Positions 5,611-50,900 of a DNA stretch of 64,000 nt are shown one piece after another. This DNA is from Crambe crambe. Taxonomy: Eukaryota > Porifera > Demospongiae > Poecilosclerida > Crambeidae. Made by a program: the position numbers and the translations under genes. Within the stretch, counting starts at the first letter, position 1; each line of letters begins with the position of its first letter. Below the pieces are notes generated by a model, which had not been told where the DNA came from, searched no databases, and saw only the letters and a program-made list of their open reading frames with translations. Where the stretch lies: contig OZ004584.1 in NCBI GenBank assembly GCA_963924555.1, forward strand, positions 5,889,001 through 5,953,000, written 5' to 3'.

Positions 5611-5643
5611 TTATTATTATTATTATTCTTCTTCTTATTATTC

Positions 5644-7682: not shown

Positions 7683-10600
7683 ATGTCTTCGTTAAAAGAA
7701 AACATTCACATTGAAACATTAGTATCGGCCTTGAAATCAGGTGATTTCAAGACGGTCTTACCGATATTATTATTGCAACAAAAATCATCATCAGAGCTCA
7801 CTTTTCCCAACAAATTCACACCTCTTCACTATGCCTGTCGTCACGGCAGACTGGATGTGGTTCAATCACTCATTACTAACTGCATTGGGTACACCATTGA
7901 GAGTAGAGATGCAAATGGTTGCACACCTTTACACACTGCAGCAAAGTACGGACACTTCAATATCGTAAAATATTTGATATCAAGGTTATCAATGTCCCTT
8001 ACATCCATAAAAATTAGTACTAAATTATCATCAGCACTAATGTCTTTATTCCAAGGTAAATTAACAGACCAGCATACAAATTTAAATGGCAATACACCAT
8101 TACATGCTGCCTGTATGGGTGGGCACTTGGATATAGTCAAGTTCCTTATCAATACTATTGGCTGTGATCCACTGAGCATTAACATTGAAGGTCTACCCTG
8201 TCTCCACCTGGCAGCAGAGCATGGACACTTGAATGTGGTTGAATACTTATTGGAGGAGGTAGGGAGTGATGTGAACGTTGTGGATGTGCATGGGAGATCT
8301 CCAGCTTACCTTGCAGCTGGAGGAGGACATTTGCAAGTCCTCAAGTATCTCATTGAGACTAAGGGAGCAGATCCTCAATTCAAAACAACTGCAGAATGGA
8401 AAAGTGATGAATTTCATATGGCACCAGGTAGTTCACTAGTACATATAGCAAGTCGTGAAGGGCACCTAAATGTGGTGGAATATTTACTAGGCAGTCACGA
8501 TTGCAGTCCATCTTGTCAGGATGAGGTACATGTTACTCCTCTTCATCTTGCCAGTCAACAGGGACACATGGACATTGTAGTTTACCTGGTAGACACACAT
8601 CACTGTGATCCATTGTGTCAAGATAAAGACAAGATAACTCCATTGCACCGAGCCTCTTCCAACGGTCACTTAAATGTGATGCGATATTTAAATGCTATCC
8701 ACAACTCAGATCCACTAGTGAAGTATACTTATGATGACACACCACTTCATGTTGCTGCATTGGAAGGTAAACTAGATGTGGTCAAGCACTTTATTGAAGA
8801 TATGAAATGTGATCCCAACACTAAAGGACAATGGGATAGGATTCCTCTTCATCATGCGAGTGAACAAGGACATCTAGATGTCGTGAAATACCTCGTAGAA
8901 TCACATCACTGTGATCCATTGTGTCCAGATGAAAAGAAGCGAACTCCGTTGCACCAAGCCTCTTACAATGGACACTTAAATGTGGTGCAATATTTAAATG
9001 CTATCCACAACTCAGATCCACTAGTGAAGAATACTTATGATAACACACCACTTCATGTTGCTGCATTGGAAGGTAAACTAGATGTGGTCAAGCACTTTAT
9101 TGAAGATATGAAATGTGATCCCAACACTAAAGGACACTGGGATAGGATTCCTCTTCATCATGCGAGTGAACAAGGACATCTAGATGTCGTGAAATACCTC
9201 GTAGAATCACATCACTGTGATCCATTGTGTCCAGATGAAAAGAAGCGAACTCCGTTGCACCAAGCCTCTTACAATGGACACTTAAATGTGGTGCAATATT
9301 TAAATGCTATCCACAACTCAAATCCACTAGTGAAGGATACTGATGATTACACACCACTTCAGTATGCTGCATTGCAAGGTAAACTAGATGTGGTCAAGCA
9401 CTTTATTGAAGATATGAAATGTGATCCCAACACTAAAGGACAATGGGATAGGATTCTTCTTCATCATGCGAGTGAACAAGGACATTTAGATGTCGTGAAA
9501 TACCTCGTAGAATCACATCACTGTGATCCATTGTGTCCAGATGAAAAGAAGCGAACTCCGTTGCACCAAGCCTCTTACAATGGACACTTAAATGTGGTGC
9601 AATATTTAAATGCTATCCACAACTCAAATCCACTAGTGAAGGATACTGATGATAACACACCACTTCATGATGCTGCATTACAAGGTAAACTAGATGTGGT
9701 CAAGCACTTTATTGAAGATATGAAATGTGATCCCAACACTAAAGGACAATGGGATAGGATTCCTCTTCATCATGCGAGTGAACAAGGACATCTAGATGTC
9801 GTGAAATACCTCGTAGAATCACATCACTGTGATCCATTGTGTCCAGATGAAAAGAAGCGAACTCCGTTGCACCAAGCCTCTTACAATGGACACTTAAATG
9901 TGGTGCAATATTTAAATGCTATCCACAACTCAGATCCACTAGTGAAGGATACTTATGATAACACACCACTTCATGATGCTGCATTACAAGGTAAACTAGA
10001 TGTGGTCAAGCACTTTATTGAAGATATGAAATGTGATCCCAACACTAAAGGACAATGGGATAGGATTCCTCTTCATCATGCGAGTGAACAAGGACATTTA
10101 GATGTCGTGAAATACCTCGTAGAATCACATCACTGTGATCCATTGTGTCCAGATGAAAAGAAGCGAACTCCGTTGCACCAAGCCTCTTACAATGGACACT
10201 TAAATGTGGTGCAATATTTAAATGCTATCCACAACTCAAATCCACTAGTGAAGGATACTGATGATTACACACCACTTCAGTATGCTGCATTGCAAGGTAA
10301 ACTAGATGTGGTCAAGCACTTTATTGAAGATATGAAATGTGATCCCAACACTAAAGGACAATGGGATAGGATTCTTCTTCATCATGCGAGTGAACAAGGA
10401 CATTTAGATGTCGTGAAATACCTCGTAGAATCACATCACTGTGATCCATTGTGTCCAGATGAAGACAAGCGAACTCCTTTGCACCAAGCCTCTTCCAACG
10501 GTCACTTAAATGTGGTGCAATATTTAAATGCTATCCACAACTCAGATCCACTAGTGAAGGATACTTATGGTAACACACCACTTCACTATGCTGCATTGCA

Positions 10601-13600
10601 AGGTAAACTAGATGTGGTCAAGCACTTTATTGAAGATATGAAATGTGATCCCAACACTAAAGGACAATGGGATAGGATTCCTCTTCATCATGCGAGTGAA
10701 CAAGGACATCTAGATGTCGTGAAATACCTCGTAGAATCACATCACTGCGATCCATTGTGTCCAGATGAAGACAAGCGAACTCCATTGCACCAAGCCTCTT
10801 ACAATGGACACTTAAATGTGGTGCAATATTTAAATGCTATCCACAACTCAGATCCACTAGTGAAGAATACTTATGATAACACACCACTTCATGTTGCTGC
10901 ATCACAAGGTAAACTAGATGTGGTCAAGCACTTTATTGAAGATATGAAATGTGATCCCAACACTAAAGGACAATGGGATAGGATTCCTCTTCATCATGCG
11001 AGTGAACAAGGACATCTAGATGTCGTGAAATACCTCGTAGAATCACATCACTGTGATCCATTGTGTCCAGGTAAGAAAAAGGAAACTCCATTGCACTTAG
11101 CCTCTTTCTATGGACACTTAAATGTGGTGCAATATTTAAATGCTATCCACCACTCAGATCCACTAGTGAAGGATGATAATGGAGAAACTCCTTTCCTTTG
11201 TGCAATAAAAAGAGGACACCTTGAAATTATTAAACACCTCATGACTCATTGCAGATTGGATCCATATACGCAGCCTGACCGAAAGACTCTTCTAAAAATG
11301 AAGTCTCCAGAAATTCAGAAGATTTTTAATGAATATGCTGATCCTCTTCATGAAGCTGCCATAATTGGAGATATGAAGAATATCACTTTTTACATTGAGA
11401 GGAAAAAGTGGAGTCCACTACTGCAGGACAGACATGGAAATAATTTACTCCACAATGCAGCAAAGTACGGTCAATTGGAAGTGGTCAAGTACTTAACTGG
11501 GAGTGGGCAAGAAAATGCGGAACAGGAAAATTCTCTAGTTTCGTGTGATCCATCTATAAAGAATAAGTGTGGCCTAACAGCACGACAAATAGCATCACAG
11601 AGTGGTCATAAACATGTGGAGTCTTATCTTCTTCGTGCTACGACAAGTCTAACTATTTCCAAAAAGTATGCTTTGTCACCTTCTATCTGCATATTGGTGA
11701 TGGGCAATTCTGGGTCAGGAAAATCCACTTTAGTCAAAGCTTTGAGCAAAGAAAAAAGTCTTATTGGAAAAATCAAAAAGGTGAAAGGAGTTGTACCATT
11801 AACAGCTGGTATCATACCCACTACCCTCCAGAGTAAAGTGTTTGGAAGTGTCAGCATTTACGACTTTGCTGGACACGAAGAATACTATGCAAGTCATGAA
11901 ATAATCCTTCAGCAAGTCACTCAACCACTCGTTCTTATAGCAATTGATATTTCACTACCTGCAGCAGATATAAAGAAGCAGATGTTATACTGGCTTTCCA
12001 TATTATCCAATGCAGCTTCTATCAAGAAACATAAAACAGTCCACTTGATAGTTGTGGGTAGTCATGCAGATCAAGTCACTAGTGAAACAAATAGCAGTGT
12101 ACAACAGATTATGACTTCTGCTTTCGTAACATGTGAGAGCATAAAGTATCATGGATCTATTTTCTGTGATTGTCGATATTCAGGATCTAGTGACATGAAG
12201 GAACTGCGACAAAAGTTGAACAGTGTTTGCATGTCTATACGTCAGCGTATCACACGTACTGAGAGTGATTACTCTAACAGGTTATGTGCATCTTTAATGT
12301 ACTACTTGCAAGAAAGTGTGTCTGATCAAGATCCAACAATCACTGTAAGAGAGTTGTGTAACCTGATTAAGGGATTGAGGAGTCCAGGTCCAACTTTAGT
12401 TCAACTTGCTGATCTGAATTTATTGATTGGTACTTGTGAAACTCTATGCTCAAATGGACATCTTATCTTCTTGCCACATGAAAAAAACATAAAGAAAAGT
12501 GTGTTAGTGTTGAATCAAGACATCATGCTTTCCAAGGTCCATGCGAGCCTCAAGTTGATAAAGCAAAACATAACAAATGAAATAGGAATGTTGGAAGCAT
12601 CTCAACTTAAAGAAGTTCTATCTAAATCTTTGCGGAGTGCAATGCCACCAGATTTAGCTATCAAATATCTGATTTTCACTCAATTTTGTACTGAAATAGC
12701 TCCTGATCATCTTCTATCTGCTCCAGAAAATCTTACGAAATCAGTTCATTACTTTTTCCCTAATCTTGTTCTCAGTGAAAAGCCTTCAGATCTGTTTGTC
12801 ACTACTGAAGAGAATTACTCACACCTGTACACCTGGTATCTGAAATGCTCCGATGCCCACCAGTTCTTTACTCCAAGGTTTTTCCACACTTTATTCATTC
12901 AACTTATCAAATGTGAGAGTGGCAGAGAGCAAGCTAAATACATCATTTGGAAAAATGGTATCTTGTTGGTTCACAGCAATGCAACAAGGTGTGTGATAGA
13001 AGTGATAGACCAGACTACAATGCTGTTCCTTACCATGCAATGTATGAGTGGATCTGAATTCCACTTAGTGCAGAAACGATCACTGCTGATCTCCCTCGTC
13101 AAGTCTTTGAAGAATAAGCTCTGTCCTTCACTTCAGCTGAATGAATTATTTACTCTTCCTCAAAGGTCATATCCTCCTGACCTCAGAGTGAGCATACCAT
13201 TAGCCGATGTAGCTAAATCAGTCTTAACCAGTAGCAAAGCAGTGGTAATTAAAGACAGAACAAGCCTGCAGCATATCTTCCTATCTGATCTCTTTTACTT
13301 TGATTCCTTTCATAAAATACAAGAATCTGTCCTTCAGGAACTCTATGCAAATAGCTCTTCACTTGTGAATGTTCCTGACATCACGATAGAAAATGTACGC
13401 AAAGCAATCAAAGAATGTGATTACTTGGCCGAGGCACTTCAAGACGAGACAGAACATTTCAAAATCACTTACAGCAAACTCCATGAAGAGTTGGCCAAAT
13501 TCTCCATATTTGCTGATAGGAATCTTTATGTAAGACAAAAGTTCATGCAGAACTTTCATAATTATGTAGTTACTGATATGTAATTCATTTTCTATTCAGG

Positions 13601-15030
13601 AGTCTGCTGGTGTTGAAGTACCAAAATTAGCCACTAATAAGAAATCTCAACTTACTACTACTCAGGAATCAGCTGGTATTGAAATGTCAAAGTTGACCAC
13701 TACTCAAGAGATCTTAAGTCATCTAATCAAATGTGGTGAGCATTATTATGCATATATAATTAGTACAGGATTTAACTACATATTATGCACATTTTATATA
13801 GATCCTTTGGACATAAGAGATCTCTATATTGTCAATGCTAGACTATCGAAGGTCATTAACAAGTGGAAAGAGTTTGGGATGGCTCTGGGTTTGAATGCCC
13901 ACACTTTAGAAGCGATAAAAAGTAACAATCTTCATGGAGTTAAACATTGCCTGACTGAAGCATTGGCAGCTTGGTTAAATGGAGAAGATAGGCCACAAGA
14001 CTCACCTCCTCCGAACTGGAAGGAAGTGGTTGATGCTCTCAAATTTCCAACTGTGAATTTACAAGCTCATGCTACTCAACTAGCACAGCAATTGACAGGT
14101 AGATGTACACAGCTACATGATAATAGTTATCTACATGTATTGGTATTGTAGTTATGAATGTAGCTAAATGTCTTCAAGGGTTTTATCTAAAGGGGGGGGG
14201 GGGGGGCACAGAGGAAGCAGTACATGAGAATAATCTTCTTGTCTCTCCATGCAATGGTCAGAGGCTTTTTGATTGTCAGGCCCCCTTCCTCCCCTCCTTC
14301 CTTCCTCCTCACCCCCTTCCTCCCCTCCCTTCACCCTCCCTCCTTCCTTCTCACCCCTCTCCCTCCCCTCCCTCCTTCCTACCCTCCCTCCTCACCCCCT
14401 TCCTCCCCTCCCTTCACCCTCCCTCCTTCCTTCTCACCCCTCTCCCTCCCCTCCCTCCTTCCTCCTCACCCCCTCTTCCTTCCTCTTCGCCCCTTCCCTC
14501 CCCCCTTCCTCCCCCAATGGCAACTTCCACCCCAACTCAACAATCCTAAATGAAATTTATAATGCAAGAATTTATTATGTACAAATAGATATTCATGATG
14601 AATCACTGAAAAAACAGGAATTGTTTGACTCAGTGGATAATAGGACCTTGGGTATGTTATATCCATTGAAGATTTGATATTGATACTACTACTATTGGTT
14701 TGATATAATGTAGGCACTGAATCAGTTGCTGTCATGAAAAGATCTGTCCACTCCTTGAGTCGTAAATGGTTCCACCTTGGTCTCTCCCTCGGCCTCAGCT
14801 ACTCCACTCTCAAGAATATTGGGGCCTCCCATCACTATGACGTTGGAGATCGCATGACTGATATGCTCCAAAAATGGCTGGAGGGAGTGGATGAGGAGAT
14901 AGCCAAGGAGTTCAGGGGTCCTCCCAGCTGGAGGTCCCTGGCACTTGCCCTGGACTGTCCTCTGGTGTGTGAACACCAAGTGGCACTCAACATCAAGAGT
15001 GAACATGAAATCCCTGAAATTCACCTTTAA
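7683..15030 (+). CDS. ANK1: ankyrin array-Roc GTPase-COR-like-Death-Death protein, five coding exons
   Basis: Predicted exons are 7683-13529, 13600-13735, 13802-14098, 14589-14651 (symmetric, possibly optional) and 14714-15030. All junctions are GT-AG and in phase, giving 2219 residues. Residues about 40-1335 hold about 36 ankyrin repeats, with eight copies of a 102-residue triple repeat in the middle. The Roc GTPase follows: P-loop GNSGSGKST from residue 1341, Walker B/G3 DFAGHEEYY from 1394, and G4-type SHAD from 1460. A COR-like region ends near the YFFPNL and FTPRFFHTLF segments. Two death domains follow, one in exon 3 (KWKEFGMALGL and PPNWKEVVDAL) and one in exon 5 (KWFHLGLSLGLS and PPSWRSLALAL). 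The layout matches DAPK/Roco proteins without a kinase. It is probably a cytosolic signalling or cell-death adaptor; the ligand is unknown. An upstream in-frame TTG (7575) is rejected as the start because ANK3 and ANK5 do not keep it. Confidence 0.85.
8709..11156 (+). repeat. ANK1 higher-order repeat: 8 copies of 306 bp
   Basis: The block GATCCACTAGTGAAG recurs at spacings of 306 bases from 8709 to 11157 (2448 = 8 x 306), with no indels. Each unit encodes three different 34-residue ankyrin repeats, beginning DPLV, DPNT and DPLC. Units are nearly identical in DNA, including silent sites. Confidence 0.9.
14192..14515. repeat. Intronic G15 run and pyrimidine (CCCTCCTTCC-type) tract in ANK1
   Basis: Fifteen consecutive G (14192-14206) are followed by an almost pure C/T tract (14280-14515) built from shuffled CCTCCCTCCTTCC and CACCCC modules. 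It lies in the intron between the first death-domain exon and the 63-nt exon. The proline-rich ORFs across it are artefacts of this composition. Confidence 0.8.
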
Positions 15031-15879
15031 CTATACAGTAGCCAGTTTTATACCAGTGCATCATGATTAGTTTTTCTTGATTTGTTTATCACGATAGTCC
15101 TTTTCATTAATTCTCAATTTGTACGATCAAAAGACAAATCGACTTATTGACTTGAATGTAATAATCCTTACATGCATGACTGTCACTATTGTAAAGTATG
15201 TGTAACATGTAGCTATACATTACTGCTGGAGCCCAAGGTTCTGTGACCATGACCTGTTACCTTCTCCTGATGGAGTTCTCCAATTCATCAGAAAAAAAAA
15301 ATCAGTTGTGAGTGAGAGTGTGGAGGTACTTTGTTAGGACCAGGAATGGAGTCAAAGGGTACACATGCACGTCATGTCATGTCATGTCATGTCATGGTAC
15401 AGTGGAAGATAATGACACTCCTAAAGAGGACAATCCTCTCAACTGAAAGCATCTTTGTACACTCTAGCTACATAAAGAGGAAGGACTATCTTTCTACAAA
15501 GGACAAAAGGCTGGGTCCCAAGTGTGTCTATTAGCTATTCAGAGGTCATTACACTGCTTTACTTGAGATATATCTGCTTGCATCCCTCACCCATTAAGGT
15601 CTGCCTGCCAATGTCTGTATTATTCATGTTACGTAGAGCTGCAGTGTATGCATGTGCTTGCAAAAGAGCTAATCTTATATTTTATCCAGTTTGAGTTTGT
15701 ATAGCTATGAATTAAGATAATAAAGTTAGCAAGAAATGTGATGGCCAAGCTATTATAGCATTATTGATTTCAGCTAGCTAAACGTGCCAGACTGAGAATT
15801 GAGGGTGACAGCTACTGCCTTTCCTTCAATGATTATACTGGGGATAATAGCACTCCAAAATAAAATGAAGTGATGTGTG
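15031..15879. repeat. Spacer after ANK1, duplicated after ANK2
   Basis: I find no supported gene. The segment is nearly identical to 30748-31600 after ANK2, with small indels, and from about 15668 also to 41639 onward after the ANK3 break. It includes a CATGT microsatellite (about 15370-15396). The shared 67-codon ORF at 15331-15534 and 31049-31252 is preserved simply because the duplication is recent. Confidence 0.6.
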
Positions 15880-16315
15880 GTTCTTTCACAATATCTCATA
15901 TAAACAACCTACGTAGACAATAATTAACCTCTGCATGAGCAATGTGCTGGTCATTCTCTTTTGCAAATTTCTGAATTTTGAAGATCCTTCAAAAGCTCAT
16001 AATTTCATGACTGGAAGGTTGATGCCAGAATTAGCTTCTTCTCTTGTTGCGAGTTGGATCTCTTTCTACTATGCTCAAATACAGGAATTCTCACTCGACA
16101 ACAATGCTGCATGCAATGGAGACTGGAGCAACAATCAATGGCAACATTAGCTAAGTGCTCAGTAGGCATGCACACTCCTACGTAGCTGATGAAAACACAT
16201 TATTAGGGGAGTGAGTATCATAGGGAACACTTTTGATTCTGCTCTGACAACATACCTGCCCACACTGGGAGTGTCAATTTCCCCATCAAATGGTTTTCCT
16301 TTAAAGAAACAGTTT
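15880..16315 (+). pseudogene. Internally deleted relic of gene A (unit 2)
   Basis: The 5' part resembles the gene A leader and signal peptide region (CGAGTTGGATCTCTTTCTAC, then an AACAATGCTGCATGCAATGG stretch as in the mature N-terminus). It then jumps near 16195 to the gene A 3' end (GGGGAGTGAGTATCATAGGG, and the CACTGGGAGTG region). Roughly 800 bases of the middle are missing and stops interrupt the frame. Near-identical relics lie at 31608-32035 and 41857-42285. Confidence 0.65.
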
Positions 16316-16389
16316 TTCCCCCTGTTTTTTTCGAATAGGAAAACATACATTATTGGAATTGTACATTTTAAATAGTGAGAATGGTAGTG

Positions 16390-17200
16390 GTGGTTCACTT
16401 GTGGTTACTACTCTTTTGCATGTGAGCAGTCAATGAATCTTATTATCTGACACGCCCTTTTAGAAAAGCCGTTAGAGAAGCAGGTATGTTGATAGTTGAT
16501 ACTTCTTGTAAGTAGCTAACAGCAACTGTAACTGTATAACTATTGTCTATCAAGTGCTAAAATAAAACAAAATTAATAATGTTTAAGGTAAGAGAGTGTG
16601 TCAGCACTAGGGCTCATTTGTAGATTGCCATAGCTACATAGTATGTAACAGTATTAGCTACTATAGAGTCTATTGCATTCACTTGTTCCCTAGGAGTAGC
16701 TGAAATTATAAGTTTCATGGTATGGAACGAAGGAATAGAGCCTTATTCAGTGCGCAATCAGGAACAGAATATGTAGTTATAAGGTGACCCTTTTTTGGTC
16801 CAATAATGTAGCGAATGATTCGGGGATGAGTACATGCAGACTAGCTACAAAGCTATGGATATGTATAGCTACAATAAAAGATAGGATACCATATAGGATA
16901 TACCTTATCAGTTGCTACTGTGGAAAGGATACATATATATTATTATTCAGTCCTTATGAAAGTATTACTGTCTTCTTTTCTTGCATGATCACTATAATAA
17001 TGCTGATCAATGCAATGTAAATGCGCTGTGCTAATAATTATTGGTCACCGTGCTGTGCTACCAAGCGCATATAGCTATACTTGCACAGCAACACATGAAC
17101 CATGTGAATGATAAAAATTACTGTAAAAACTATTGTGTAAAAGCAACCCATTTAAGGTTATCTGAGTTGTAAATGGCAGCCCCCAGATAACCAAAAAAAA
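16390..17200. repeat. Third diverged copy of the intergenic flank repeat
   Basis: Ordered blocks shared with 1929-2560 and 2730-3470 are recognisable: TTGCATGTGAGCAG, CTGACACGCCC, AGAAGCAGGTATGTTGATAG, and TTGCATGATCACTATAATAA near 16981. No gene is supported. It is repeated after the gene A relics at 32110-32610 and 42360-43180. Confidence 0.5.
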
Positions 17201-17242
17201 AGGAACTCGGATAACCTAGATTCCTATTCTTTTTGCAGTGAT

Positions 17243-17685
17243 GCTTGCTGCACTTGCCCTATATGCTAGTATTTTGTCTGCCATGGAGTGTCTGCATATT
17301 TCATTGTTTTGTGTACATAGTTACACACACGTGTATGCCTGCAAAGGTTCAACAACCTGATTGCATTTTGTCACCCTAGGCTGTGTGATAAAGTTATTTA
17401 GAAGAATGCGGAGCACTGGACAAAATACCATTAAGTATGCCAGAGTTGACCCATAATAATGCCTCTTCCTAAAATAATAATAGTCTATAGTTCGTCTCCA
17501 AAATACGTAAATCAGTTAAGAAGTTCTTTCACAATACCTCTAGCACATGTAGATGATTGTCTCTATATAAGCAATCCAGCACTATTCGCCTCAGCACAAT
17601 CTACGATTTGAATTAGCTATAACTAAGATTCTGCAAAAGCTCAGTGTTAGCTAGTACAGTCATGACTGAAAGGTCAATGCAAGGT
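17243..17685 (+). pseudogene. Gene A promoter and first codons, truncated relic
   Basis: This resembles gene A positions about 105-590: the CTTGCTGCACTTGCCC start, the GCCTGCAAAGGTTCAACAAC block, the CACAATACCTCTAGCACATG block, and CATGACTGAAAGGTCAATGC, which encodes the first residues of the signal peptide. It then breaks off before the mature coding part. A shorter copy is at 32612-32915. Confidence 0.6.
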
Positions 17686-18231
17686 CCAGAATTTTTTGTC
17701 AATTAAGAATACATAAGAAATCATCAAGATTTAACAACTCCAAGTGCTAAGTGATCTCAAACTATGTAGCTACACTTTGATAGCTAGCTAGCTAGCTATG
17801 TTGATAATAATAGATACACAACCATATGTACCTAACAGTATTACTCTCGCATTCACTTGTTCTCTGGCATATGAATATAAAGCCTTATATTATTATAGCA
17901 AGCAGTCTATAGGGGACAAGTAAACGTACAATAGATAAGATACCTTAATAGTTGTTTTTATAGTTGATACAATATATCTTCAGGCCAAGGAGTCGAATTA
18001 GTTATTAATTATCCAATTATCCAGGCCAAGGAGTCGAATTTAGCTATTAATTATCCAATCCTACTAGCTGTAACTAGAGAATGTGTTGTTACTGTCTCAT
18101 GATCACTATAATAATACTGATCATTGCCAATGTGCACAATGCACTGTGCTGATATTATTGATTACTGCACAGTGCTACCCTGTGTGTGTGCATACATATT
18201 TCCAGGAGACATCTTTCGAGTAAACTCATTA
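17686..18231. repeat. Intergenic stretch with flank-repeat fragments
   Basis: No gene is seen. It contains further fragments of the flank repeat (GTTAACAACTCC-type block, TATAGGGGACAAGTAAACG, GAATGTGTTGTTACTGTCTC) and a local duplication of about 45 bases around GGCCAAGGAGTCGAAT (17973-18055). It is nearly identical to 32916-33449. Confidence 0.5.
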
Positions 18232-19517: not shown

Positions 19518-19542
19518 CTATCTGCTGATTTCAATTTGATTG

Positions 19543-19640
19543 TGCTCCCACTGGGAGTGGAAACACCCGATGGACAAGTGGATTTCCTTAAAGAAACAGT
19601 TTCTAAAAGTTGGAATGTTAATGGAATAGGAACATGATGT
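19543..19640 (+). pseudogene. 3' end fragment of gene A (unit 2)
   Basis: CCACTGGGAGTGGAAACACC and GATGGACAAGTGGATTTCC match the last codons of gene A, followed by the same 3' flank (TTAAAGAAACAG, GGAATAGGAACATGATGTC). This shows that the ANK flank was originally joined to a gene A copy. Confidence 0.65.
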
Positions 19641-21647: not shown

Positions 21648-21657
21648 TTATAAATAG
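21648..21657 (+). promoter_or_regulatory. TATA box of ANK2 and leader with uORF (21713-21736)
   Basis: TTATAAATAG has the same spacing to the main ATG (21802) as in ANK1. The seven-codon uORF is also identical. Confidence 0.65.
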
Positions 21658-35874: not shown

Positions 35875-35892
35875 TGCTGATTTCAATTTGAT

Positions 35893-37997: not shown

Positions 37998-38007
37998 TTA
38001 TAAATAG
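37998..38007 (+). promoter_or_regulatory. TATA box of ANK3
   Basis: TTATAAATAG and the uORF are retained although the gene is broken. The TTG used as an apparent start in ANK1, 2 and 4 is TTA here. Confidence 0.55.
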
Positions 38008-38151
38008 CGCAGTGCATTTCGATCATATTCTCATCACCGCCAGTTAACACATCAGTTAATTAATGGACTATTACAAGGGACATTGACTGACAATACTGTG
38101 CAGGCTTCAATAATTTCAGAGTCGAGTTATACAATCATTCGATCAAATATA

Positions 38152-41100
38152 ATGTCTTCGTTAAAAGAAAACATTCACATTGAAACATTAGTATCGGCCT
38201 TGATTTCAGGTGATTTTAGGACGGTCTTACCGATATTATTATTGCAACAAAAATCATCATCAGAGCTCACTTTTCCCAACAAATTCACACCTCTTCACTA
38301 TGCCTGTCGTCACGGCAGACTGGATGTGGTTCAATCACTCATTACTAACTGCATTGGGTACACCATTGAGAGTAGAGATGTAAATGGTTGCACACCTTTA
38401 CACACTGCAGCAAAGTACGGACACTTCAATATCGTAAAATATTTGATATCAAGATTACTAATGTCCCTTATATCCATAAAAATTAGTACTAAATTATCAT
38501 CAGCACTAATGTCTTTATTCCAAGGTAAATTAGCAGACCAGCATACAAATTTAAATGGCAATACACCATTACATGCTGCCTGTATGGGTGGGCACTTGGA
38601 TATAGTCAAGTTCCTTATCAATACTATTGGCTGTGATCCACTGAGCATTAACATTGAAGGTCTACCCTGTCTCCACATGGCAGCAGAGCATGGACACTTG
38701 AATGTGGTTGAATACTTTATTAGAGGAGGTAGGGAGTGATGTAAACGTTGTGGATGTGCATGGGAGATCTCCAGCTTACCTTGCAGCTGGAGGAGGACAT
38801 TTGCAAGTCCTCAAGTATCTCATTGAGACTAAGGGAGCAGATCCTCAATTCAAAACAACTGCAGAATGGAAAAGTGATGAGTTTCATATGGCACCAGGTA
38901 GGTCACTAGTACATACAGCAAGTCGTGAAGGGCACCTGAATGTGGTGGAATATTTACTAGGCAGTCACAATTGCAGTCCATCTTGTCAGGATGAGGAGCA
39001 TGTTACTCCTCTTCATCTTGCCAGTCAACAGGGACACATGGACATTGTAGTTTACCTGATAGACACACATCACTGTGATCCATTGTGTCCAGATAAAAAA
39101 AAGATAACTCCATTGCACCGAGCTTCTTTAAATGGACACTTAAATGTGGTGCAATATTTAAATGCTATCCACAACTCAGATCCACTAGTGAAGAATACTT
39201 ATGATGACACACCACTTCATGTTGCTGCATTGGAAGGTAAACTAGATGTGGTCAAGCACTTTATTGAAGATATGAAATGTGATCCCAACACTAAAGGACA
39301 ATGGGATAGGATTCCTCTTCATCATGCGAGTGAACAAGGACATCTAGATGTCGTGAAATACCTTGTAGAATCACATCACTGTGATCCATTGTGTCCAGAT
39401 GAGAAGAAGGTAACTCCATTGCACCGAGCCTCTTCCAACGGTCACTTAAATGTGGTGCAATATTTAAATGCTATCCACAACTCAGATCCACTAGTGAAGA
39501 ATACTTATGATGACACACCACTTCATGTTGCTGCATTGGAAGGTAAACTAGATGTGGTCAAGCACTTTATTGAAGATATGAAATGTGATCCCAACACTAA
39601 AGGACAATGGGATAGGATTCCTCTTCATCATGCAAGTGCACAAGGACATCTAGATGTCGTAAAATACCTTGTAGAATCACATCACTGTGATCCATTGTGT
39701 CCAGATGAGAAGAAGGTAACTCCATTGCACCGAGCCTCTTCCAACGGTCACTTAAATGTGGTGCAATATTTAAATGCTATCCACAACTCAGATCCACTAG
39801 TGAAGAATACTTATGATGACACACCACTTCATGTTGCTGCATTGGAAGGTAAACTAGATGTGGTCAAGCACTTTATTGAAGATATGAAATGTGATCCCAA
39901 CACTAAAGGACAATGGGATAGGATTCCTCTTCATCATGCGAGTGAACACGGACATCTAGATGTCGTGAAATACCTCGTAGAATCACATCACTGTGATCCA
40001 TTGTGTCCAGATGAGAAGAAGGTAACTCCATTGCACCGAGCCTCTTCCAACGGTCACTTAAATGTGGTGCAATATTTAAATGCTATCCACAACTCAGATC
40101 CACTAGTGAAGAATACTTATGATAACACACCACTTCATGTTGCTGCATTGGAAGGTAAACTAGATGTGGTCAAGCACTTTATTGAAGATATGAAATGTGA
40201 TCCCAACACTAAAGGACGATGGGATAGGATTCCTCTTCATCATGCGAGTGAACACGGACATCTAGATGTCGTGAAATACCTCGTAGAATCACATCACTGT
40301 GATCCATTGTGTCCAGATGAGAAGAAGGTAACTCCATTGCACCGAGCCTCTTCCAACGGTCACTTAAATGTGGTGCAATATTTAAATGCTATCCACAACT
40401 CAGATCCACTAGTGAAGAATACTTATGATGACACACCACTTCATGTTGCTGCATTGGAAGGTAAACTAGATGTGGTCAAGCACTTCATTGAAGATATGAA
40501 ATGTGATCCCAACACTAAAGGACAATGGGATAGGATTCCTCTTCATCATGCGAGTGAACACGGACATCTAGATGTCGTGAAATACCTCGTAGAATCACAT
40601 CACTGTGATTCATTGTGTCCAGATGAGAAGAAGGTAACTCCATTGCACCGAGCCTCTTCCAACGGTCACTTAAATGTGGTGCAATATTTAAATGCTATCC
40701 ACAACTCAGATCCACTAGTGAAGAATACTTATGGTGACACACCACTTCACTATGCTGCGTCACGAGGTAAACTAGATGTGGTCAAGCACTTTATCGAAGA
40801 TATGAAATGTGATCCCAACACTAAAGGAGGATGGGATAGGATTCCTCTTCATCATGCGAGTGAACAAGGACATCTAGATGTCGTGAAATACCTCGTAGAA
40901 TCACATCACTGTGATCCATTGTGTCCAGATGAAGACAAGCAAACTCCGTTGCACCGAGCCTCTTCCAACGGTCACTTAAATGTGGTGCAATATTTAAATG
41001 CTATCCACAACTCAGATCCACTAGTGAAGAATACTTATGATAACACACCACTTCATGTTGCTGCATTGGAAGGTAAACTAGATGTGGTCAAGCACTTTAT

Positions 41101-41671
41101 TGAAGATATGAAATGTGATCCCAACACTAAAGGACAATGGGATAGGATTCCTCTTCATCATGCGAGTGAACACGGACATCTAGATGTCGTGAATTACCTC
41201 GTAGAATCACATCACTGTGATCCATTGTGTCCAGATGAGAAGAAGGTAACTCCATTGCACCGAGCCTCTTCCAACGGTCACTTAAATGTGGTGCAATATT
41301 TAAATGCTATCCACAACTCAGATCCACTAGTGAAGAATACTTATGATGACACACCACTTCATGTTGCTGCATTGGAAGGTAAACTAGATGTGGTCAAGCA
41401 CTTTATTGAAGATATGAAATGTGATCCCAACACTAAAGGAGGATGGGATAGGATTCCTCTTCATTATGCAAGTGGACAAGGACATCTAGATGTCGTGAAA
41501 TACCTCGTAGAATCACATCACTGTGATCCATTGTGTCCAGATGAAGACAAGCGAACTCCATTGCACCGAGCCTCTTCCAACGGACAATTTGATGTGGTGA
41601 GATATTTTATTGCTATCCACCACTCAGATCCACTAGTGATCTTATATTTTATCCAGTTTGAGTTTGTATAG
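38152..41671 (+). pseudogene. ANK3: truncated and frameshifted ankyrin paralogue
   Basis: It starts at the same ATG as ANK1 and ANK2 and encodes the same N-terminal ankyrin repeats. A one-base insertion near 38716 (TACTTTATTA where the other copies have TACTTATT) ends the frame at 38737-38739. The second open stretch (38702-41671) carries the rest of the ankyrin array with eight 306-bp units. At about 41639 the ankyrin sequence is joined to spacer DNA (TCTTATATTTTATCCAG, as at 31393), so the last repeats, the Roc GTPase, COR and both death domains are gone, and the frame ends after a few foreign codons. Compared with ANK2 the deletion is about 4.6 kb. The frameshift alone could be an assembly error; the deletion is structural. 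Confidence 0.8.
39179..41626 (+). repeat. ANK3 higher-order repeat: 8 copies of 306 bp
   Basis: GATCC landmarks at 39179 and 41627 are 2448 bases apart (8 x 306). Units here share a local signature, DEKKVTPLHRASSNG, repeated in most copies. That indicates recent local homogenisation. Confidence 0.85.
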
Positions 41672-41856
41672 CTATGAATTAAGATAATAAAGTTAGCAAG
41701 AAATGTGATGGCCAAGCTATTTTATAGCATTATTGAATTCAGCTAGCTAAACGTGCCAGACTGAGAATTGAGGGTAACAGCTACTGCCTTTCCTTCAATG
41801 ATTATACTGGGGATAATAGCACTCCAAAATAAAATGAAGTGATGTGTGGTTCTTTC

Positions 41857-42285
41857 ACAATACCTCATATAAACAACCTACGTAGCACAATAATTAACCT
41901 CTGCATGAGCAATGTGCTGGTCATTCTCTTTTGCAAATTTCTGAATTTTGAAGATCCTTCAAAAGCTCATAAGTTCATGACTGGAAGGTTGATGCCAGAA
42001 TTAGCTTCTTCTCTTGTTGCGAGTTGGATCTCTTTCTACTATGCTCAAATGCAGGAATTCTCACCCGACAACAATGCTGCATGCAATGGAGACTGGAGCA
42101 ACAATCAATGGCAACATTAGCTAAGTGCTCAGTAGGCATGCACACTCCTACGTAGCTGATGAAAACACATTATTAGGGGAGTGAGTATCATAGGGAACAC
42201 TTTTGATTCTGCTCTGACAACATACCTGCCCACACTGGGAGTGTCAATTTCCCCATCAAATGGTTTTCCTTTAAAGAAACAGTTT
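41857..42285 (+). pseudogene. Internally deleted relic of gene A (unit 4)
   Basis: It is nearly identical to the relics at 15880-16315 and 31608-32035. Confidence 0.65.
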
Positions 42286-43418
42286 TTCCCCCTGTTTTTT
42301 TTCGAATAGGAAAACATACATTATTGGAATTGTACATTTTAAATAGTGAGAATGGTAGTGGTGGTTCACTTGTGGTTACTACTCTTTTGCATGTGAGCAG
42401 TCAATGAATCTTATTATCTGACACGCCCTTTTAGAAAAGCCGTTAGAGAAGCAGGTATGTTGATAGTTGATACTTCTTGTAAGTAGCTAACAGCAACTGT
42501 AACTGTATAACTATTGTCTATCAAGTGCTAAAATAAAACAAAATTAATAATGTTTAAGGTAAGAGAGTGTGTCAGCACTAGGGCTCATTTGTAGATTGCC
42601 ATAGCTACATAGTATGTAACAGTATTAGCTACTATAGAGTCTATTGCATTCACTTGTTCCCTAGGAGTAGCTGAAATTATAAGTTTCATGGTATGGAACG
42701 AAGGAATAGAGCCTTATTCAGTGCGCAATCAGGAACAGAATATGTAGTTATAAGGTGACCCTTTTTTGGTCCAATAATGTAGCGAATGATTCGGGGATGA
42801 GTACATGCAGACTAGCTACAAAGCTATAGCTACAATAAAAGATAGGATACCATATAGGATATACCTTATCAGTTGCTACTGTGGAAAGGATACATATATA
42901 TTATTATTCAGTCCTTATGAAAGTATTACTGTCTTCTTTTCTTGCATGATCACTATAATAATGCTGATCAATGCAATGTAAATGCGCTGTGCTAATAATT
43001 ATTGGTCACCGTGCTGTGCTACCAAGCGCATATAGCTATACTTGCACAGCAACACATGAACCATGTGAATGATAAAAATTACTGTAAAAACTATTGTGTA
43101 AAAGCAACCCATTTAAGGTTATCTGAGTTATAAATGGCAGCCCCCAGATAACCAAAAAAAGGAACTCGGATAACCTAGATTCCTATTCTTTTTGCAGTGA
43201 TGCTTGCTGCACTTGCCCTATATGCTAAAGTATTCTAGTATTTCGTCTGCCAGTGTCTGCATATTTCATTGTTTTGTGTACGTAGTTACACACACGTGTA
43301 TGCCTGCAAAGGTTCAACAACCTGATTGCATTTTGTCACCCTAGGCTGTGTGATAAAGTTATTTAGAAGAATGCGGAGCACTGGACAAAATACCATTAAG
43401 TATGCCAGAGTTGACACA
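42286..43418. repeat. Spacer, copy of 16316-17440
   Basis: It keeps the segment that unit 3 has lost. It ends at about 43418 (AGTATGCCAGAGTTGACACA), where it joins ANK flank DNA, so the foldback element and the 3' gene A fragment are missing in this unit. No gene is supported. Confidence 0.55.
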
Positions 43419-44815
43419 TAGGACTTAATGGACTAAGTGGTCAAATTAGTTATTAATTATCCACCTATCAGCTGTCGCTAGAGAATGTGTTGTTACTGTC
43501 TCATGATCACTATAATAATGCTGATCATTGCCAATGTGCAAAATGCGCTGTGCTAATAATGATCACTGCGCAGTGCTACCCTGTGTGTGCGCATACATAC
43601 TGTGTTTTCAATTGTTGTTGGGACGTCTTTGATCACAATCCAAGCAAACTAACATCAAGTATGTGTACAATATCAATGTAGCTATGTACACTGATGTGGT
43701 TACACGTAGCTAGTTATTATTCTTTTGTGTAGTCTCATAGGCTTCTGCATGTGAGCATATGTACTTATTCATCAGTGAAGTCACTACAATCATCTTTATG
43801 AATAAGCAGTTTTATGAATCTCATTATCTGACATGCCCTTTTTTGAAAGAAGCAGGTATGTAAGTAGCAGTTTATTAGTGTTCACTTGACATTATAGAAG
43901 CAACTGAGATAAATTATTAGGGAGCTAAAGCTAAAACGTTTGGAATCATGGAGCACACATAACTAATTAGCTAGCTAAATAGCTAACTATCTGCTGATTT
44001 CATTTTGATTTCAAGTGAAGGATATAAGTAATTATGATAAAGCCTTAAGAGAAGAGGTAGCTACATAATATTATGTTTACATTAATCCTCATAACCGTAT
44101 ACATGTAGCTAACAATACTATAGAGTCTATTGTGTTCACTAGTTCCCTGGAAGTAGTCGTATAGTTAATAAGTTTGAGAGGTAAATGGAATAAAGGAATA
44201 AAGCCTTATACATGTGTGTGTAGGAGCAGTACATACAGTAAATCAATGAATATAGCTATCTGGTAATGTTTATTTTAGTCCAAATAAGATTATTATCTTG
44301 ATCAATCTATAGGGGACGAGTAAATGTAAATAGACTAGCTATACAATGATAGGATACCTTATTATTATTTTTTTACAGGATTAGCTAAAAAGATTGGCTT
44401 GTTATTATCCAGACCTACTAACTGTTGAGAATGTGTAGCTATTGTCTTCTTTCTTGCATGATCACTATAATAATATTGATCCATGCAATATAAATGCACT
44501 GCGCTCACTGCGCTCACTGTGTATGGATGCATATGCAGTGTTGATAATGATATGGCAATATAATTATGTAGAGCAAGCTAACTAGGTGATACATAATGAT
44601 CTCAACCACTGCAAGAATCTAGCTAATAAGTATGAATGATGGCTATTGTAAGAGTACTCTAGTACTAACAGTTGATGATTGTAATCGATTTCATTTTAAT
44701 TGCAGATTGTGCATAATTATAATTTGAGAGTAGATCATCATTTCATTCGAGGCGTCATCTTTGTAGTAGCTATATTTGGTATTTCTTCTTGGTTGAATAC
44801 TCGATCAAAGTGAGA
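43419..44815. repeat. Shortened 5' flank of ANK4
   Basis: It corresponds to about 20250-21640 before ANK2. It has the uninterrupted site for the foldback insertion near 44470. No gene is supported. Confidence 0.6.
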
Positions 44816-44825
44816 TTATAAATAG
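44816..44825 (+). promoter_or_regulatory. TATA box of ANK4
   Basis: TTATAAATAG, followed by the conserved leader and uORF, at the same distance from the main ATG (44970). Confidence 0.6.
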
Positions 44826-44969
44826 CGCAGTGCATTTCGATCATATTCTCGTCACCGCCAGTTGTCACATCAGTTAATTAATGGACTATTACAAGGGACA
44901 TTGACTGACAATACTGTGCAGGCTTCAATAATTTCAGAGTCGAGTTATACAATCATTCGATCAAATATA

Positions 44970-47900
44970 ATGTCTTCGTTAAAAGAAAACATTCACATTG
45001 AAACATTAGTATCGGCCTTGAAATCAGGTGATTTTAAGACGGTCTTACCGATATTATTATTGCAACAAAAATCATCATCAGAGCACACTTTTCCCAACAA
45101 ATTCACACCTCTTCACTATGCCTGTCGTCACGGCAGACTGGATGTGGTTCAATCACTCATTACTAACTGCATTGGGTACACCATTGAGAGTAGAGATGCA
45201 GATGGTTGCACACCTTTACACACTGCAGCAAAGTACGGACACTTCGATATCGTAAAATATTTGATATCAAGGTTATCAATGTCCCTTACATCCATAAAAA
45301 TTAGTACTAAATTATCATCAGCACTAACGTCTTTGTTCCAAGGTAAATTAGCAGACCAGCATACAAATTTAAATGGCAATACACCATTACATGCTGCCTG
45401 TATGGGTGGGCACTTGGATATAGTCAAGTTCCTTATCAATACTATTGGCTGTGATCCACTGAGCATTAACATTGAAGGTCTACCCTGTCTCCACCTGGCA
45501 GCAGAGCATGGACACTTGAATGTGGTTGAATACTTATTGGAGGAGGTAGGGAGTGATGTAAACGTTGTGGATGTGCATGGGAGATCTCAAGCTTACCTTG
45601 CAGCTGGAGGAGGACATTTGCAAGTCCTCAAGTATCTCATTGAGACTAAGGGAGCAGATCCTCAATTCAAAACAACTGCAGAATGGAAAAGTGATGAGTT
45701 TCATATGGCACCAGGTAGGTCACTAGTACATACAGCAAGTCGTGAAGGGCACCTAAATGTGGTAGAATATTTACTAGGCAGTCACGATTGCAGTCCATCT
45801 TGTCAGGATGAGGAGCATGTTACTCCTCTTCATCTTGCCAGTCAACAGGGACACATGGACATTGTAGTTTACCTGATAGACACACATCACTGTGATCCAT
45901 TGTGTCCAGATGAAGAAAAGATAACTCCATTGCACCGAGCTTCTTTAAATGGACACTTAAATGTGGTGCAATATTTAAATGCTATCCACAACTCAGATCC
46001 ACTAGTGAAGGATACTTATGGTGACACACCACTTCACTATGCTACATTGCAAGGTAAACTAGATGTGGTCAAGCACTTTATTGAAGATATGAAATGTGAT
46101 CCCAACACTAAAGGACGATGGGATAGGATTCCTCTTCATCATCGAGTGAACAAGGACATCTAGATGTCGTGAAATACCTCGTAGAATCACATCACTGTGA
46201 TCCATTGTGTCCAGGTGAGAAGAAGGAAACTCCATTGCACCAAGCCTCTTCCAATGGTCACTTAAATGTGGTGCAATATTTAAATGCTATCCACAACTCA
46301 GATCCACTAGTGAAGAATACTTATGATAACACACCACTTCATGTTGCTGCATTGAAAGGTAAACTAGATGTGGTCAAGCACTTTATTGAAGATATGAAAT
46401 GTGATCCCAACACTAAAGGACAATGGGATAGGATTCCTCTTCATCATGCGAGTGAACAAGGACATCTAGATGTCGTGAAATACCTCGTAGAATCACATCA
46501 CTGTGATCCATTGTGTCCAGATGAAAAGAAGCGAACTCCGTTGCACCAAGCCTCTTACGATGGACACTTAAATGTGGTGCAATATTTAAATGCTATCCAC
46601 AACTCAGATCCACTAGTGAAGAATACTTATGATAACACACCACTTCATGTTGCTGCATTGGAAGGTAAACTAGATGTGGTCAAGCACTTTATTGAAGATA
46701 TGAAATGTGATCCCAACACTAAAGGACAATGGGATAGGATTCCTCTTCATCATGCGAGTGAACGAGGACATCTAGATGTCGTGAAATACCTCGTAGAATC
46801 ACATCACTGTGATCCATTGTGTCCAGATGAAGACAAGGAAACTCCATTGCACCGAGCCTCTTCCAACGGTCACTTAAATGTGGTGCAATATTTAAATGCT
46901 ATCCACAACTCAGATCCACTAGTGAAGAATACTTATGATAACACACCACTTCATGTTGCTGCATTCGAAGGTAAACTAGATGTGGTCAAGCACTTTATTG
47001 AAGATATGAAATGTGATCCCAACACTAAAGGACAATGGGATAGGATTCCTCTTCATCATGCGAGTGAACAAGGACATCTAGATGTCGTGAAATACCTCGT
47101 AGAATCACATCACTGTGATCCATTGTGTCCAGATGAAAAGAAGCGAACTCCGTTGCACCAAGCCTCTTACGATGGACACTTAAATGTGGTGCAATATTTA
47201 AATGCTATCCACAACTCAGATCCACTAGTGAAGAATACTTATGATAACACACCACTTCATGTTGCTGCATAGGAAGGTAAACTAGATGTGGTCAAGCACT
47301 TTATTGAAGATATGAAATGTGATCCCAACACTAAAGGACAATGGGATAGGATTCCTCTTCATCATGCGAGTGAACAAGGACATCTAGATGTCGTGAAATA
47401 CCTCGTAGAATCACATCACTGTGATCCATTGTATCCAGATGAGAAGAAGCAAACTCCATTGCACCGAGCCTCTTCCAACGGTCACTTAAATGTGGTGCAA
47501 TATTTAAATGCTATCCACAACTCACATCCACTAGTGAAGAATACTTATGATAACACACCACTTCATGTTGCTGCATTGGAAGGTAAACTAGATGTGGTCA
47601 AGCACTTTATTGAAGATATGAAATGTGATCCCAACACTAAAGGACAATGGGATAGGATTCCTCTTCATCATGCGAGTGAACGAGGACATCTAGATGTCGT
47701 GAAATACCTCGTAGAATCACATCACTGTGATCCATTGTGTCCAGATGAAGACAAGCAAACTCCATTGCACCGAGCCTCTTCCAACGGTCACTTAAATGTG
47801 GTGCAATATTTAAATGCTATCCACAACTCAGATCCACTAGTGAAGAATACTTATGATAACACACCACTTCATGTTGCTGCATTCGAAGGTAAACTAGATG

Positions 47901-50900
47901 TGGTCAAGCACTTTATTGAAGATATGAAATGTGATCCCAACACTAAAGGACGATGGGATAGGATTCCTCTTCATCATGCGAGTGAACAAGGACATCTAGA
48001 TGTCGTGAAATACCTCGTAGAATCACATCACTGTGATCCATTGTGTCCAGATGAAGACAAGCAAACTCCATTGCACCGAGCCTCTTCCAACGGTCACTTA
48101 AATGTGGTGCAATATTTAAATGCTATCCACAACTCAGATCCACTAGTGAAAAATACTTATGATAACACACCACTTCATGTTGCTGCATTCGAAGGTAAAC
48201 TAGATGTGGTCAAGCACTTTATTGAAGATATGAAATGTGATCCCAACACTAAAGGACGATGGGATAGGATTCCTCTTCATCATGCGAGTGAACAAGGACA
48301 TCTAGATGTCGTGAAATACCTCGTAGAATCACATCACTGTGATCCATTGTGTCCAGATGAAGACAAGCAAACTCCATTGCACCGAGCCTCTTCCAACGGT
48401 CACTTAAATGTGGTGCAATATTTAAATGCTATCCACAACTCAGATCCACTAGTGAAGAATACTTATGATAACACACCACTTCATGTTGCTGCATTCGAAG
48501 GTAAACTAGATGTGGTCAAGCACTTTATTGAAGATATGAAATGTGATCCCAACACTACAGGACGATGGGATAGGATTCCTCTTCATCATGCGAGTGAACA
48601 AGGACATCTAGATGTCGTGAAATACCTCGTAGAATCACATCACTGTGATCCATTGTGTCCAGATGAAGACAAGCAAACTCCATTGCACCGAGCCTCTTCC
48701 AACGGTCACTTAAATGTGGTGCAATATTTAAATGCTATCCACAACTCAGATCCACTAGTGAAAAATACTTATGATAACACACCACTTCATGTTGCTGCAT
48801 CACAAGGTAAACTAGATGTGGTCAAGCACTTTATCGAAAATATGAAATGTGATCCCAACACTAAAGGACAATGGGATACGATTCCTCTTCATCATGCAAG
48901 TGAACAAGGACATCTAGATGTCGTGAAATACCTTGTAGAATCACATCACTGTGATCCATTGTGTCCAGATGTGAAGAAGGAAACTCCATTGCACCAAGCC
49001 TCTTCCAATGGTCACTTAAATGTGGTGCAATATTTAAATGCTATCCACAACTCACATCCACTAGTGAAGAATACTTATGATAACACACCACTTCATGTTG
49101 CTGCATTGCAAGGTAAACTAGATGTGGTCAAGCACTTTATTGAAGATATGAAATGTGATCCAAACACTAAAGGACGATGGGATAGGATTCCTCTTCATCA
49201 AGCAAGTGCACAAGGACATCTAGATGTCGTGAAATACCTTGTAGAATCGCATCACTGTGATCCATTGTGTCCAGGTGAGAAGAAGGAAACTCCATTGCAC
49301 TGTGCATCTGCTAAAGGTCACTTGGATATAGTTCGATTTTTCATCATTTGTTGCAAGTCTGATCCACTAGTGAAAGATGATTATGGTAATACTTCTCTAC
49401 ACAAAGCTGTGCAGAATAATAGACTTGAAGTGGTCAGATTTTACATTGAAGACATCAAATGTGATCCTAATATCAGGGGTCAGTTTGGTAGTACTCCTCT
49501 CCATGATGCAATCATAAGTGACTCTTTTGATGTTTCTAAATATCTGATTGATTCAAATACCTGTGATGTACAGTTATCGAATAATTCTGGTGAAACTCCT
49601 TTTCGTCTTGCAATAAAAAGAGACGACCTTGAAATTATCAAATTTCTCATGACTTTTTGCAGATTAGATCCATATACACAGCCTGACCGTAAGGCTCTTC
49701 TAAAAATTAAGTCTCCAGAAATTCAGAAGATTTTTGATGAATATGCTGATCCCCTTCACAAAGCTGTCATTATTGGAGATATGGAAAACGTCACATTTTA
49801 CATTGAGAGGAAAAAGTGGAGTCCACTACTACAAGATAGACATGGAAATAACTTACTCCACAATGCAGCAAAGTATGGTCAATTGGAAGTGGTCAAGTAC
49901 TTAACAGGGAGTGGACTAGAAAATGCAGAACAGGAAAATTCTCAAGTTTTGTGCGATCCATCTATAAAGAATAAGTGTGGCCTAACAGCACAACAGATAG
50001 CATCACAGAGTGGTCATAAACATGTGGAGTCTTATCTTCTTCGTGCTACAACAAGTCTAACTATTTCCAAAAAGTATGCTTTGTCACCTTCTATCTGCAT
50101 ATTGGTGATGGGCAATTCTGGGTCAGGAAAATCCACTTTAGTCAAAGCTTTGAGCAAAGAAAAAAGTCTTATTGGAAAAATCAAGAAGGTTAAAGGAGTT
50201 GTACCATTAACAGCTGGTATCATACCCACTACCCTCCAGAGTAAAGTGTTTGGAAGTGTCAGCATTTACGACTTTGCTGGACACAAAGAATACTATGCAA
50301 GTCATGAAATAATCCTTCAGCAAGCCACTCAATCACTTGTTCTTGTAGCAGTCGATATTTCACTACCTGCAGCAGATATAAAGAAGCAGATGTTATACTG
50401 GCTTTCCTTATTATCCAATGCAGCTTCTATCAAAAAACATAAAACAGTCCACTTGATAATTGTGGGTAGTCATGCAGATCAAGTCACTAGTGAAACAAAT
50501 AGCAGTGTACAACAAATTCTAACTTCTACTTTCATAACATGTGAGAACATAAAGTATCATGGATTCATTCTCTGTGATTGTCGTTTTTCAGGATCTAGTG
50601 ACATGAAGGAACTGCGGCAAAAGTTAAACAGTGTTTGCATATCTATACGTCAGCATATCACACGTACTGAAAGTGATTACTCTAACAGGTTATGTGCATC
50701 TTTAATGTACTACTTACGAGAAAGCGTGTCTGATCAAGTTCCAACGATCACTGTAAGCAAGTTGTGTAACCTGATTAAGGAATTGAGGAATCCAGGTCCA
50801 ACTTTAGTTCAACTTGCTAATCTGAATTTATTGATTGATACTTGTGATACTCTATGCTCAAATGGACACCTTATCTTCTTGCCACATGAAAGAAACATGA

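Follow-up and report, generated by a model that had tools for sequence, protein, structure and literature searches.

Homogenised ankyrin arrays with replacement excess at groove positions in tandem ankyrin-Roc-Death genes of the sponge Crambe crambe

Introduction

The evolutionary mode discussed here is already known from the fungus Podospora, where the NACHT-ANK proteins are reported to carry positively selected sites on the concave surface of their ankyrin (ANK) repeats (PMC4986451). The PNP_UDP-NACHT-ANK gene Pa_3_8560 of Podospora anserina is described as having highly similar ANK repeats in variable number and five positions under positive selection (Dyrka et al. 2014, PMC4986451). Here we describe a locus of the sponge Crambe crambe that resembles it in these respects. 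The window, that is, the whole 64-kb stretch of DNA that was analysed (contig OZ004584.1, positions 5,889,001 to 5,953,000), contains five tandem copies of one gene (g1 to g5), all on the + strand. In g1, g2 and g4 a homogenised ANK array is followed by a Roc GTPase domain, a probable COR domain and two Death-like domains.

The sponge genes differ from the Podospora gene, as that source presents it, in having Roc instead of NACHT and Death instead of PNP_UDP, and the Podospora array comes after the nucleotide-binding domain. The repeat unit is a single repeat in Podospora and a three-repeat unit of 306 bp here, and the fungal data are alleles of wild isolates whereas ours are paralogues of one assembly (PMC4986451). 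The NACHT-WD40 incompatibility proteins HET-D and HET-E are likewise reported to combine concerted evolution with hypervariable sites that are under diversifying selection and lie on a predicted interaction surface (PMC12222747). These proteins are fungal, form a WD40 propeller and have a known partner, HET-C. In the LRR-ROC-COR proteins of brown algae, which are proposed immune receptors, the repeats also precede ROC-COR and are reshuffled, and four positively selected sites are placed on the concave face (Teng et al. 2024, PMC11378527). The algal LRRs are described as separate 72-bp exons with alternative splicing (PMC11378527). In contrast, the ANK arrays of g1 and g2 are each contained in a single open frame within one long exon, and Death domains come after them.

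DAPK1 has an ANK part. The order ANK, Roc, probable COR and Death is the same in the sponge genes as in the DAPK1-type ROCO proteins, a group that is marked by an added Death domain and is given as metazoan only (PMC6337361). Compared with these proteins, g1 and g2 have a long homogenised array, a second Death-like domain and tandem copies, and no kinase is among their Pfam matches. By our analysis the family would be neither an NLR, as no NACHT or NB-ARC was found, nor a complete DAPK, as no kinase was found; it may work like an NLR while being built like part of a DAPK. In the sponge locus the fungal mode, in its ANK version, is combined with a Roc-COR-Death frame, and no report of diversified ANK-Roc-COR-Death proteins was found in the open-licence literature.

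A further likeness is to artificial libraries of ankyrins and designed ankyrin repeat proteins (DARPins), which have a constant framework (PMC3308923, PMC8683736) and, in one published case, variation at positions 2, 3, 5, 10, 13 and 14 (PMC3308923). The libraries are engineered and use 33-residue repeats, whereas the sponge repeats are natural, have 34 residues, and vary also at positions 1 and 4 and hardly at 33.

Variation within the repeat unit

A preliminary description of the window had reported 34-residue ANK repeats between 8709 and 49360, with a few variable positions on an otherwise fixed repeat. The repeat length was right, but the true period is 306 bp and consists of three differing 34-residue ANK units, named C, A and B, in a fixed C-A-B order (39 of 39 units). 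The span given also takes in long stretches of non-repeat DNA. From 44 listed units, 39 complete and gap-free ones were kept (8 in g1, 13 in g2, 8 in g3 and 10 in g4), and the edge or broken units g1_8, g2_13, g3_8, g4a_0 and g4_10 were dropped; g5 was left out of all counts. The results below refer to the 39 units unless a subset is named. A search with one 306-bp unit gave 182 distinct PDB matches with E of 1e-12 or lower, with ankyrins and DARPins among the 60 listed. The mean nucleotide difference between 306-bp units was 3.5–5.7% within arrays and 4.2–5.6% between arrays. Identity above 85% over at least 100 residues, a criterion of high internal conservation, was found for the 102-residue three-repeat unit and not for C, A and B compared with one another.

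Positions were numbered with TPLH as 6–9. Per-position entropy confirmed that a few positions vary and the rest is nearly fixed. Summed over C, A and B, the ranking was 5, 13, 10, 14, 3, 2, 1 and 4, followed by 30 and 9. The substitutions listed earlier were present, except that Leu after LH, and Phe or Tyr in the residue pair that follows AS in unit C, occurred only in the dropped edge unit g1_8. Seven codons, all ending in A, accounted for the seven residues R, Q, E, V, I, L and K seen at position 5 of unit C, and at position 5 of unit A all four first bases occurred, each followed by AC. Position 1 was also variable, as was position 4 in unit A. In unit B variation was lower than in the other two, with positions 3 and 5 almost invariant. 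Taking positions 1–5, 10, 13 and 14 together, 35 different 24-residue surfaces (one with a stop) were present in the 39 units, and a single 78-residue scaffold was shared by 23 of them. With only the top six positions there were again 35 surfaces, and 20 scaffolds of 84 residues, the commonest in 14 of 39 units.

The six most variable of the 34 positions are exactly the set 2, 3, 5, 10, 13 and 14 that was randomised in a published artificial-ankyrin library, where these positions are stated to have been chosen for side chains that point to one common exposed surface (PMC3308923). In the same account position 10 faces the binding surface, and 26 and 33 were held constant (PMC3308923). This agrees with the earlier assignment of the variable residues to the binding surface, and it is a natural parallel to binder-library design, the six most variable positions being the six that engineers chose. 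The match is strong but is not a blind prediction, because the library paper was met after the entropy ranking had been seen. The set 3, 5, 10, 13 and 14 named in the preliminary description carries no weight here, because it was taken from the same data and its use would be circular. The DARPin randomised set, which we take to be 2, 3, 5, 13, 14 and 33, was also first applied after the variable columns had been seen. Among all 1,344,904 possible six-position sets, 260 reach its number of replacement changes and 151 its entropy.

Selection at the surface codons

We consider it probable that this pattern reflects a recognition protein whose ANK groove is under diversifying selection and whose framework is homogenised by unequal exchange. 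Counted as minimal changes, 40 replacements and 5 synonymous changes fell on the codons of positions 2, 3, 5, 10, 13 and 14 (the surface codons), and 33 and 21 fell elsewhere, so the two kinds of change were not spread evenly. Without singletons the counts were 29 and 5 against 7 and 10. Measured against the pooled synonymous rate, the ratio of replacement to synonymous rates (omega, or dN/dS) at the surface was 2.56, 3.16 and 3.66 for kappa of 1, 2 and 3.3 (p = 1.2e-4, 3.2e-6 and 1.8e-7), and by the same minimal counts omega elsewhere was 0.44–0.61. A Fisher test on codon positions of common variants at the six positions was weak (18/6 against 6/9, p = 0.044).

Codon likelihood on the unit tree gave an omega of 4.37 for the surface and 0.33 for the scaffold, with a likelihood-ratio test statistic (LRT) of 68.4. 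For the intact copies g1 and g2 alone the values were 4.84 and 0.42. When blocks C, A and B were analysed on their own trees, omega at the surface was 6.0, 3.9 and 3.6, and omega = 1 was rejected in each (p = 1.4e-7, 3e-4 and 0.0027). The DARPin set gave 3.54 for the surface and 0.45 for the scaffold (LRT 46.5). For this set only, 42 null simulations were run with fitted values, the observed consensus as root, a surface omega of 1 and 0, 30 or 60% of units reassorted per segment; their LRT reached at most 7.94. The earlier proposal of a homogenised scaffold with a diversifying surface is thus supported by the codon likelihoods (39 units, g1 with g2, and each block), by the minimal counts at the pooled rate and, for one position set, by simulation. 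The disrupted copies g3 and g4 showed the same pattern, with a scaffold omega of 0.23–0.31 for the DARPin set. Therefore their damage is recent, or is an assembly error, or is masked by exchange with live copies.

The surface would also stand out under relaxed constraint, in which groove residues are free to drift while folding holds the rest and nothing favours change: the scaffold omega of 0.3–0.6 is a real constraint that alone would have this effect, and the minimal counts scaled to local synonymous changes (below) are non-significant in several versions. However, drift should bring omega near 1, not to 2–4, and the simulated LRT of at most 7.94 is to be compared with 46.5 observed for the DARPin set. 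Some of codons 16–34 should also be exposed. Among these codons, common variants are scarce (2 replacement and 5 synonymous at a minor count of at least 2; 22 and 13 with singletons), which does not fit exposed residues drifting freely. We regard relaxed constraint as unlikely.

Several observations speak against diversifying selection or narrow its margin. When the surface codons were given their own synonymous rate, dN/dS fell below the pooled estimate, to 2.22 (LRT 9.1, p = 0.0026), or 2.13 in g1 and g2 (p = 0.02). The synonymous rate at the surface relative to the scaffold was 2.34 in the tree model and 1.2–1.3 by minimal counts, rising to 2.6–2.7 without singletons and being 1.8–2.0 in g1 and g2. 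As synonymous variation at the surface is also raised, part of the excess may be local diversity and not selection. Minimal counts measured against local synonymous changes gave p = 0.071, 0.019 and 0.006 (kappa 1, 2 and 3.3), p = 0.26, 0.12 and 0.057 without singletons, and p = 0.31, 0.12 and 0.053 for g1 and g2. This yardstick is small, with only five synonymous events at the surface codons. Position 33 of the DARPin set hardly varies. The mapping to a surface rests on ANK numbering and not on a structure model, because both AlphaFold2 models had low predicted local distance difference test scores (pLDDT 45.8 for two array units and 33.3 for Roc-COR from three sequences); neither was used. 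The selection reading given in the preliminary description therefore stands with a smaller margin (2.2, p = 0.0026, with minimal counts not always significant). By the strictest yardstick neutrality is exceeded about two-fold, and few synonymous changes underlie this estimate.

The raised synonymous rate, 2.3 times that of the rest in the tree-based estimate, also suits a mutation or gene-conversion hotspot over codons 1–15 or over the surface codons, which would raise all variation there. Synonymous changes were denser in codons 1–15 than in codons 16–34 among common variants (p = 0.07), although with singletons p was 0.36. Within codons 1–15, however, the surface codons carried 40 replacements and 5 synonymous changes and the other codons 11 and 8 (Fisher p = 0.014; 0.03 without singletons; 0.08 for g1 and g2). 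The excess therefore lies in replacements, which a general hotspot explains poorly, and a mild rise of this sort would also be expected from synonymous variants kept in linkage with selected sites. A hotspot is accordingly improbable in our judgement, more so than relaxed constraint. A replacement excess in repeats is not rare in itself, since, of 94 sea anemone proteins with tandem repeats, about 40% were reported to have Ka/Ks above 1 (PMC2805694).

Homogenisation and exchange between arrays

All four combinations of variants were found in 301 of the 528 informative site pairs. Exchange between units would produce this, but so can repeated mutation, which tells against exchange as the only source. 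Units were closer to their own array than to other arrays, by 1.6 differences on average (permutation p = 0.0015), and for 17 of the 39 the first-listed nearest relative was in another gene. We infer that reassortment of this kind is what unequal crossing-over and gene conversion would leave behind. Acting within and between copies, these processes would keep the ANK framework near-identical and change the number of repeats.

Between g4 and g2, synonymous divergence rose from 0.005 in the N-terminal part, upstream of the array, to 0.388 beyond it; g4 is therefore a chimera, joined in or close to the array. Against g1, g4 was 98% identical before the array (44473–45906 and 7195–8619) and 86% identical after it (49588–51959 and 11180–13536). 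The 5′ part of g4 is recent and its 3′ part older, with a sharp change of age across the array.

Surface differences could in principle reflect a fixed division of labour without an arms race, in an array that is mechanical, serves as a scaffold or binds a repeated partner. Long ANK arrays are reported to tend generally to similar repeats (PMC7314423), and the C-A-B order holds in 39 of 39 units, as such a role would allow. It predicts, however, that the copies should agree in their residue at any given array position, whereas they differ and the variants are mixed among units. We hold this explanation to be very improbable.

Domain architecture and proposed function

The Pfam cut-offs were 27 bits for Roc (PF08477), 27 for COR-B (PF25497) and 22.6 for Death (PF00531). 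Roc scored above its cut-off in P0001, P0002 and P0004 (28.7, 30.1 and 30.3 bits). Of 16 PDB sequences matched at E 0.01 or better, 15 are named LRRK2, the best being a 206-residue chain (E 1.3e-7). A COR-B match lay in the expected place after Roc (residues 417–504 of the g1 fragment, E 3e-4, 21.0 bits; 20.7 bits in g4); both scores are below the cut-off, a point that counts against the proposed architecture. Death domains were found C-terminal to Roc-COR. The first of them passed the cut-off in g1 and g2, and the g4 domain and all second domains fell below it. Death domains and the Roc-COR-Death order would by themselves point to an animal. N-terminal to the homogenised array, the g1 and g2 products have diverged ANK repeats, and g1, g2, g4 and g5 share the start MSSLKE. 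Among the Pfam matches of P0001 and P0002 at E 0.01 or better there was no kinase domain, a separate upstream exon not having been searched for, and there were no NACHT, NB-ARC or LRR families; nSTAND matches reached about 14 bits against cut-offs of about 27. For the 748 residues of g1 that follow the array up to the end of the long exon, 4 viral_contigs and 27 genome_contigs pattern matches were obtained and none was confirmed as a relative; the array itself was not used as a query.

Under the preferred explanation, selection for change would act on the ANK beta-turn and first helix, at positions 2, 3, 5, 10, 13 and 14 and perhaps 1 and 4, so that each array would present a different binding groove. 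ANK groove residues make contacts, and arrays with different grooves should therefore bind different partners or variants of one partner. The location of the variable positions suggests selection for new binding specificities, with recognition as the presumed source of the pressure. The array would be the sensor of a recognition receptor (immune or self/non-self), Roc-COR a nucleotide-dependent switch, and the Death domains the output, passing on the signal as in the DAPK1 group of ROCO proteins. The pattern of variation is real and diversifying selection is well supported as an evolutionary statement; a receptor role is likely, judged from what is known of the family. If this is true, the fungal recipe of homogenised repeats with diversified contact residues would operate on a Roc-COR-Death frame, and the locus would provide concrete candidate genes and residues for recognition specificity.

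A wider proposal can be made tentatively, and we lean somewhat against it. An animal lineage may have independently built a repertoire-forming receptor on a DAPK-like ANK-Roc-COR-Death frame. Three-repeat cassettes would be exchanged between copies and individuals, giving many grooves per genome with a Death-domain output, as a counterpart of the fungal het genes in allorecognition or defence.

Gene copies in the window

All exons, arrays and domains listed here are on the + strand. The first long exon of g1 (7683–13529, within an open frame at 7539–13580; exon end read by eye) encodes the diverged N-terminal ANK repeats, the homogenised array, Roc and the probable COR in an intact frame, with Ank_2 among its Pfam matches. 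Its eight complete units lie at 8622–11069 (array extent 8583–11174). Exons 2 and 3 (13600–14151), placed by GT..AG ends and frame, contain the Death domain (match 13843–14106; PF00531, E 4.9e-6, 27.0 bits). The two introns, at about 13530–13599 and 13736–13801, were read by eye as about 70 and 66 bases; introns this short would suit a compact gene structure of the sponge type. The second Death-like domain (14764–14967) is 34% identical to the first and scored 21.0 bits, just below the cut-off.

The long exon of g2 (21802–29184) is also intact and encodes the ANK array, Roc and the probable COR. It has 13 complete units at 22741–26718 (array extent 22715–26821). Its Death domain at 29492–29755, located by tblastn, scored 24.5 bits, above the cut-off, and the second Death-like domain at 30484–30690 scored 21.3 bits, below it. 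Between their two Death-like domains, g1 (14281–14513) and g2 (29994–30250) carry long C/T-rich tracts with CCCTCC-type repeats.

In g3 (38152–41640) there is a frameshift near 38720, seen as a split tblastn match (38152–38724 and 38717–39034), and the Roc, COR and Death part is absent. Eight complete units lie at 39092–41539 (array extent 39066–41639). At 41639 the g3 array ends against sequence whose counterpart in g1 is found about 4.6 kb beyond the end of the array, and 41639–43420 is 98% identical to 15672–17455 downstream of g1. The loss of the 3′ half would most simply be a deletion.

In g4 (44970–51958) the ANK array is followed by Roc and the probable COR, with a frameshift at about 46,145 and one in-frame stop in the array. 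Its ten complete units are at 46214–49273 (array extent 45883–49323), and the stop codon is at A13 of the fourth. Two Death-like domains, at 52432–52668 and 53045–53254, matched the g1 Death domain by tblastn at 55% and 36% and scored 18.1 and 19.3 bits with PF00531, both below the cut-off. The last copy, g5 (62697–63998), shows N-terminal ANK repeats (tblastn 83% to the g1 N-terminus) and the start of an array, with first units at 63738 and 63840, and runs off the window.

The frameshifts and the stop in g3 and g4 could point to misassembly of near-identical repeats, or to uncorrected read errors, that made or scrambled the variation. Illumina assemblies are reported to have failed to rebuild WD40 arrays of this kind, and false indels can persist in long-read data (PMC12222747). 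Read errors, however, should not favour six groove positions or give replacements at high frequency, and g1 and g2 are open over 2002 and 2512 codons; the order or number of units may still be wrong. As a source of the variation itself, we give this hardly any credence.

Neighbouring elements

A Ty3/gypsy-type element, which marks the window as eukaryotic, lies downstream of g4, with a zinc knuckle, protease, reverse transcriptase and RNase H in one gag-containing frame (55039–57519) and an integrase in a separate frame (57717–58568). At 469–1734 a frame of 421 residues is repetitive and looks rich in beta structure, with a weak DUF4097 match below the cut-off. Its 3′ part recurs at 58465–59236, downstream of the retroelement, with 85% identity. 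Dense direct and inverted duplications and a 243-bp tandem repeat were found at 3465–6967, with matches in the spacers near 18.7–19.5 kb and 33.8–35.9 kb, and this duplication-rich stretch is perhaps a mobile element.

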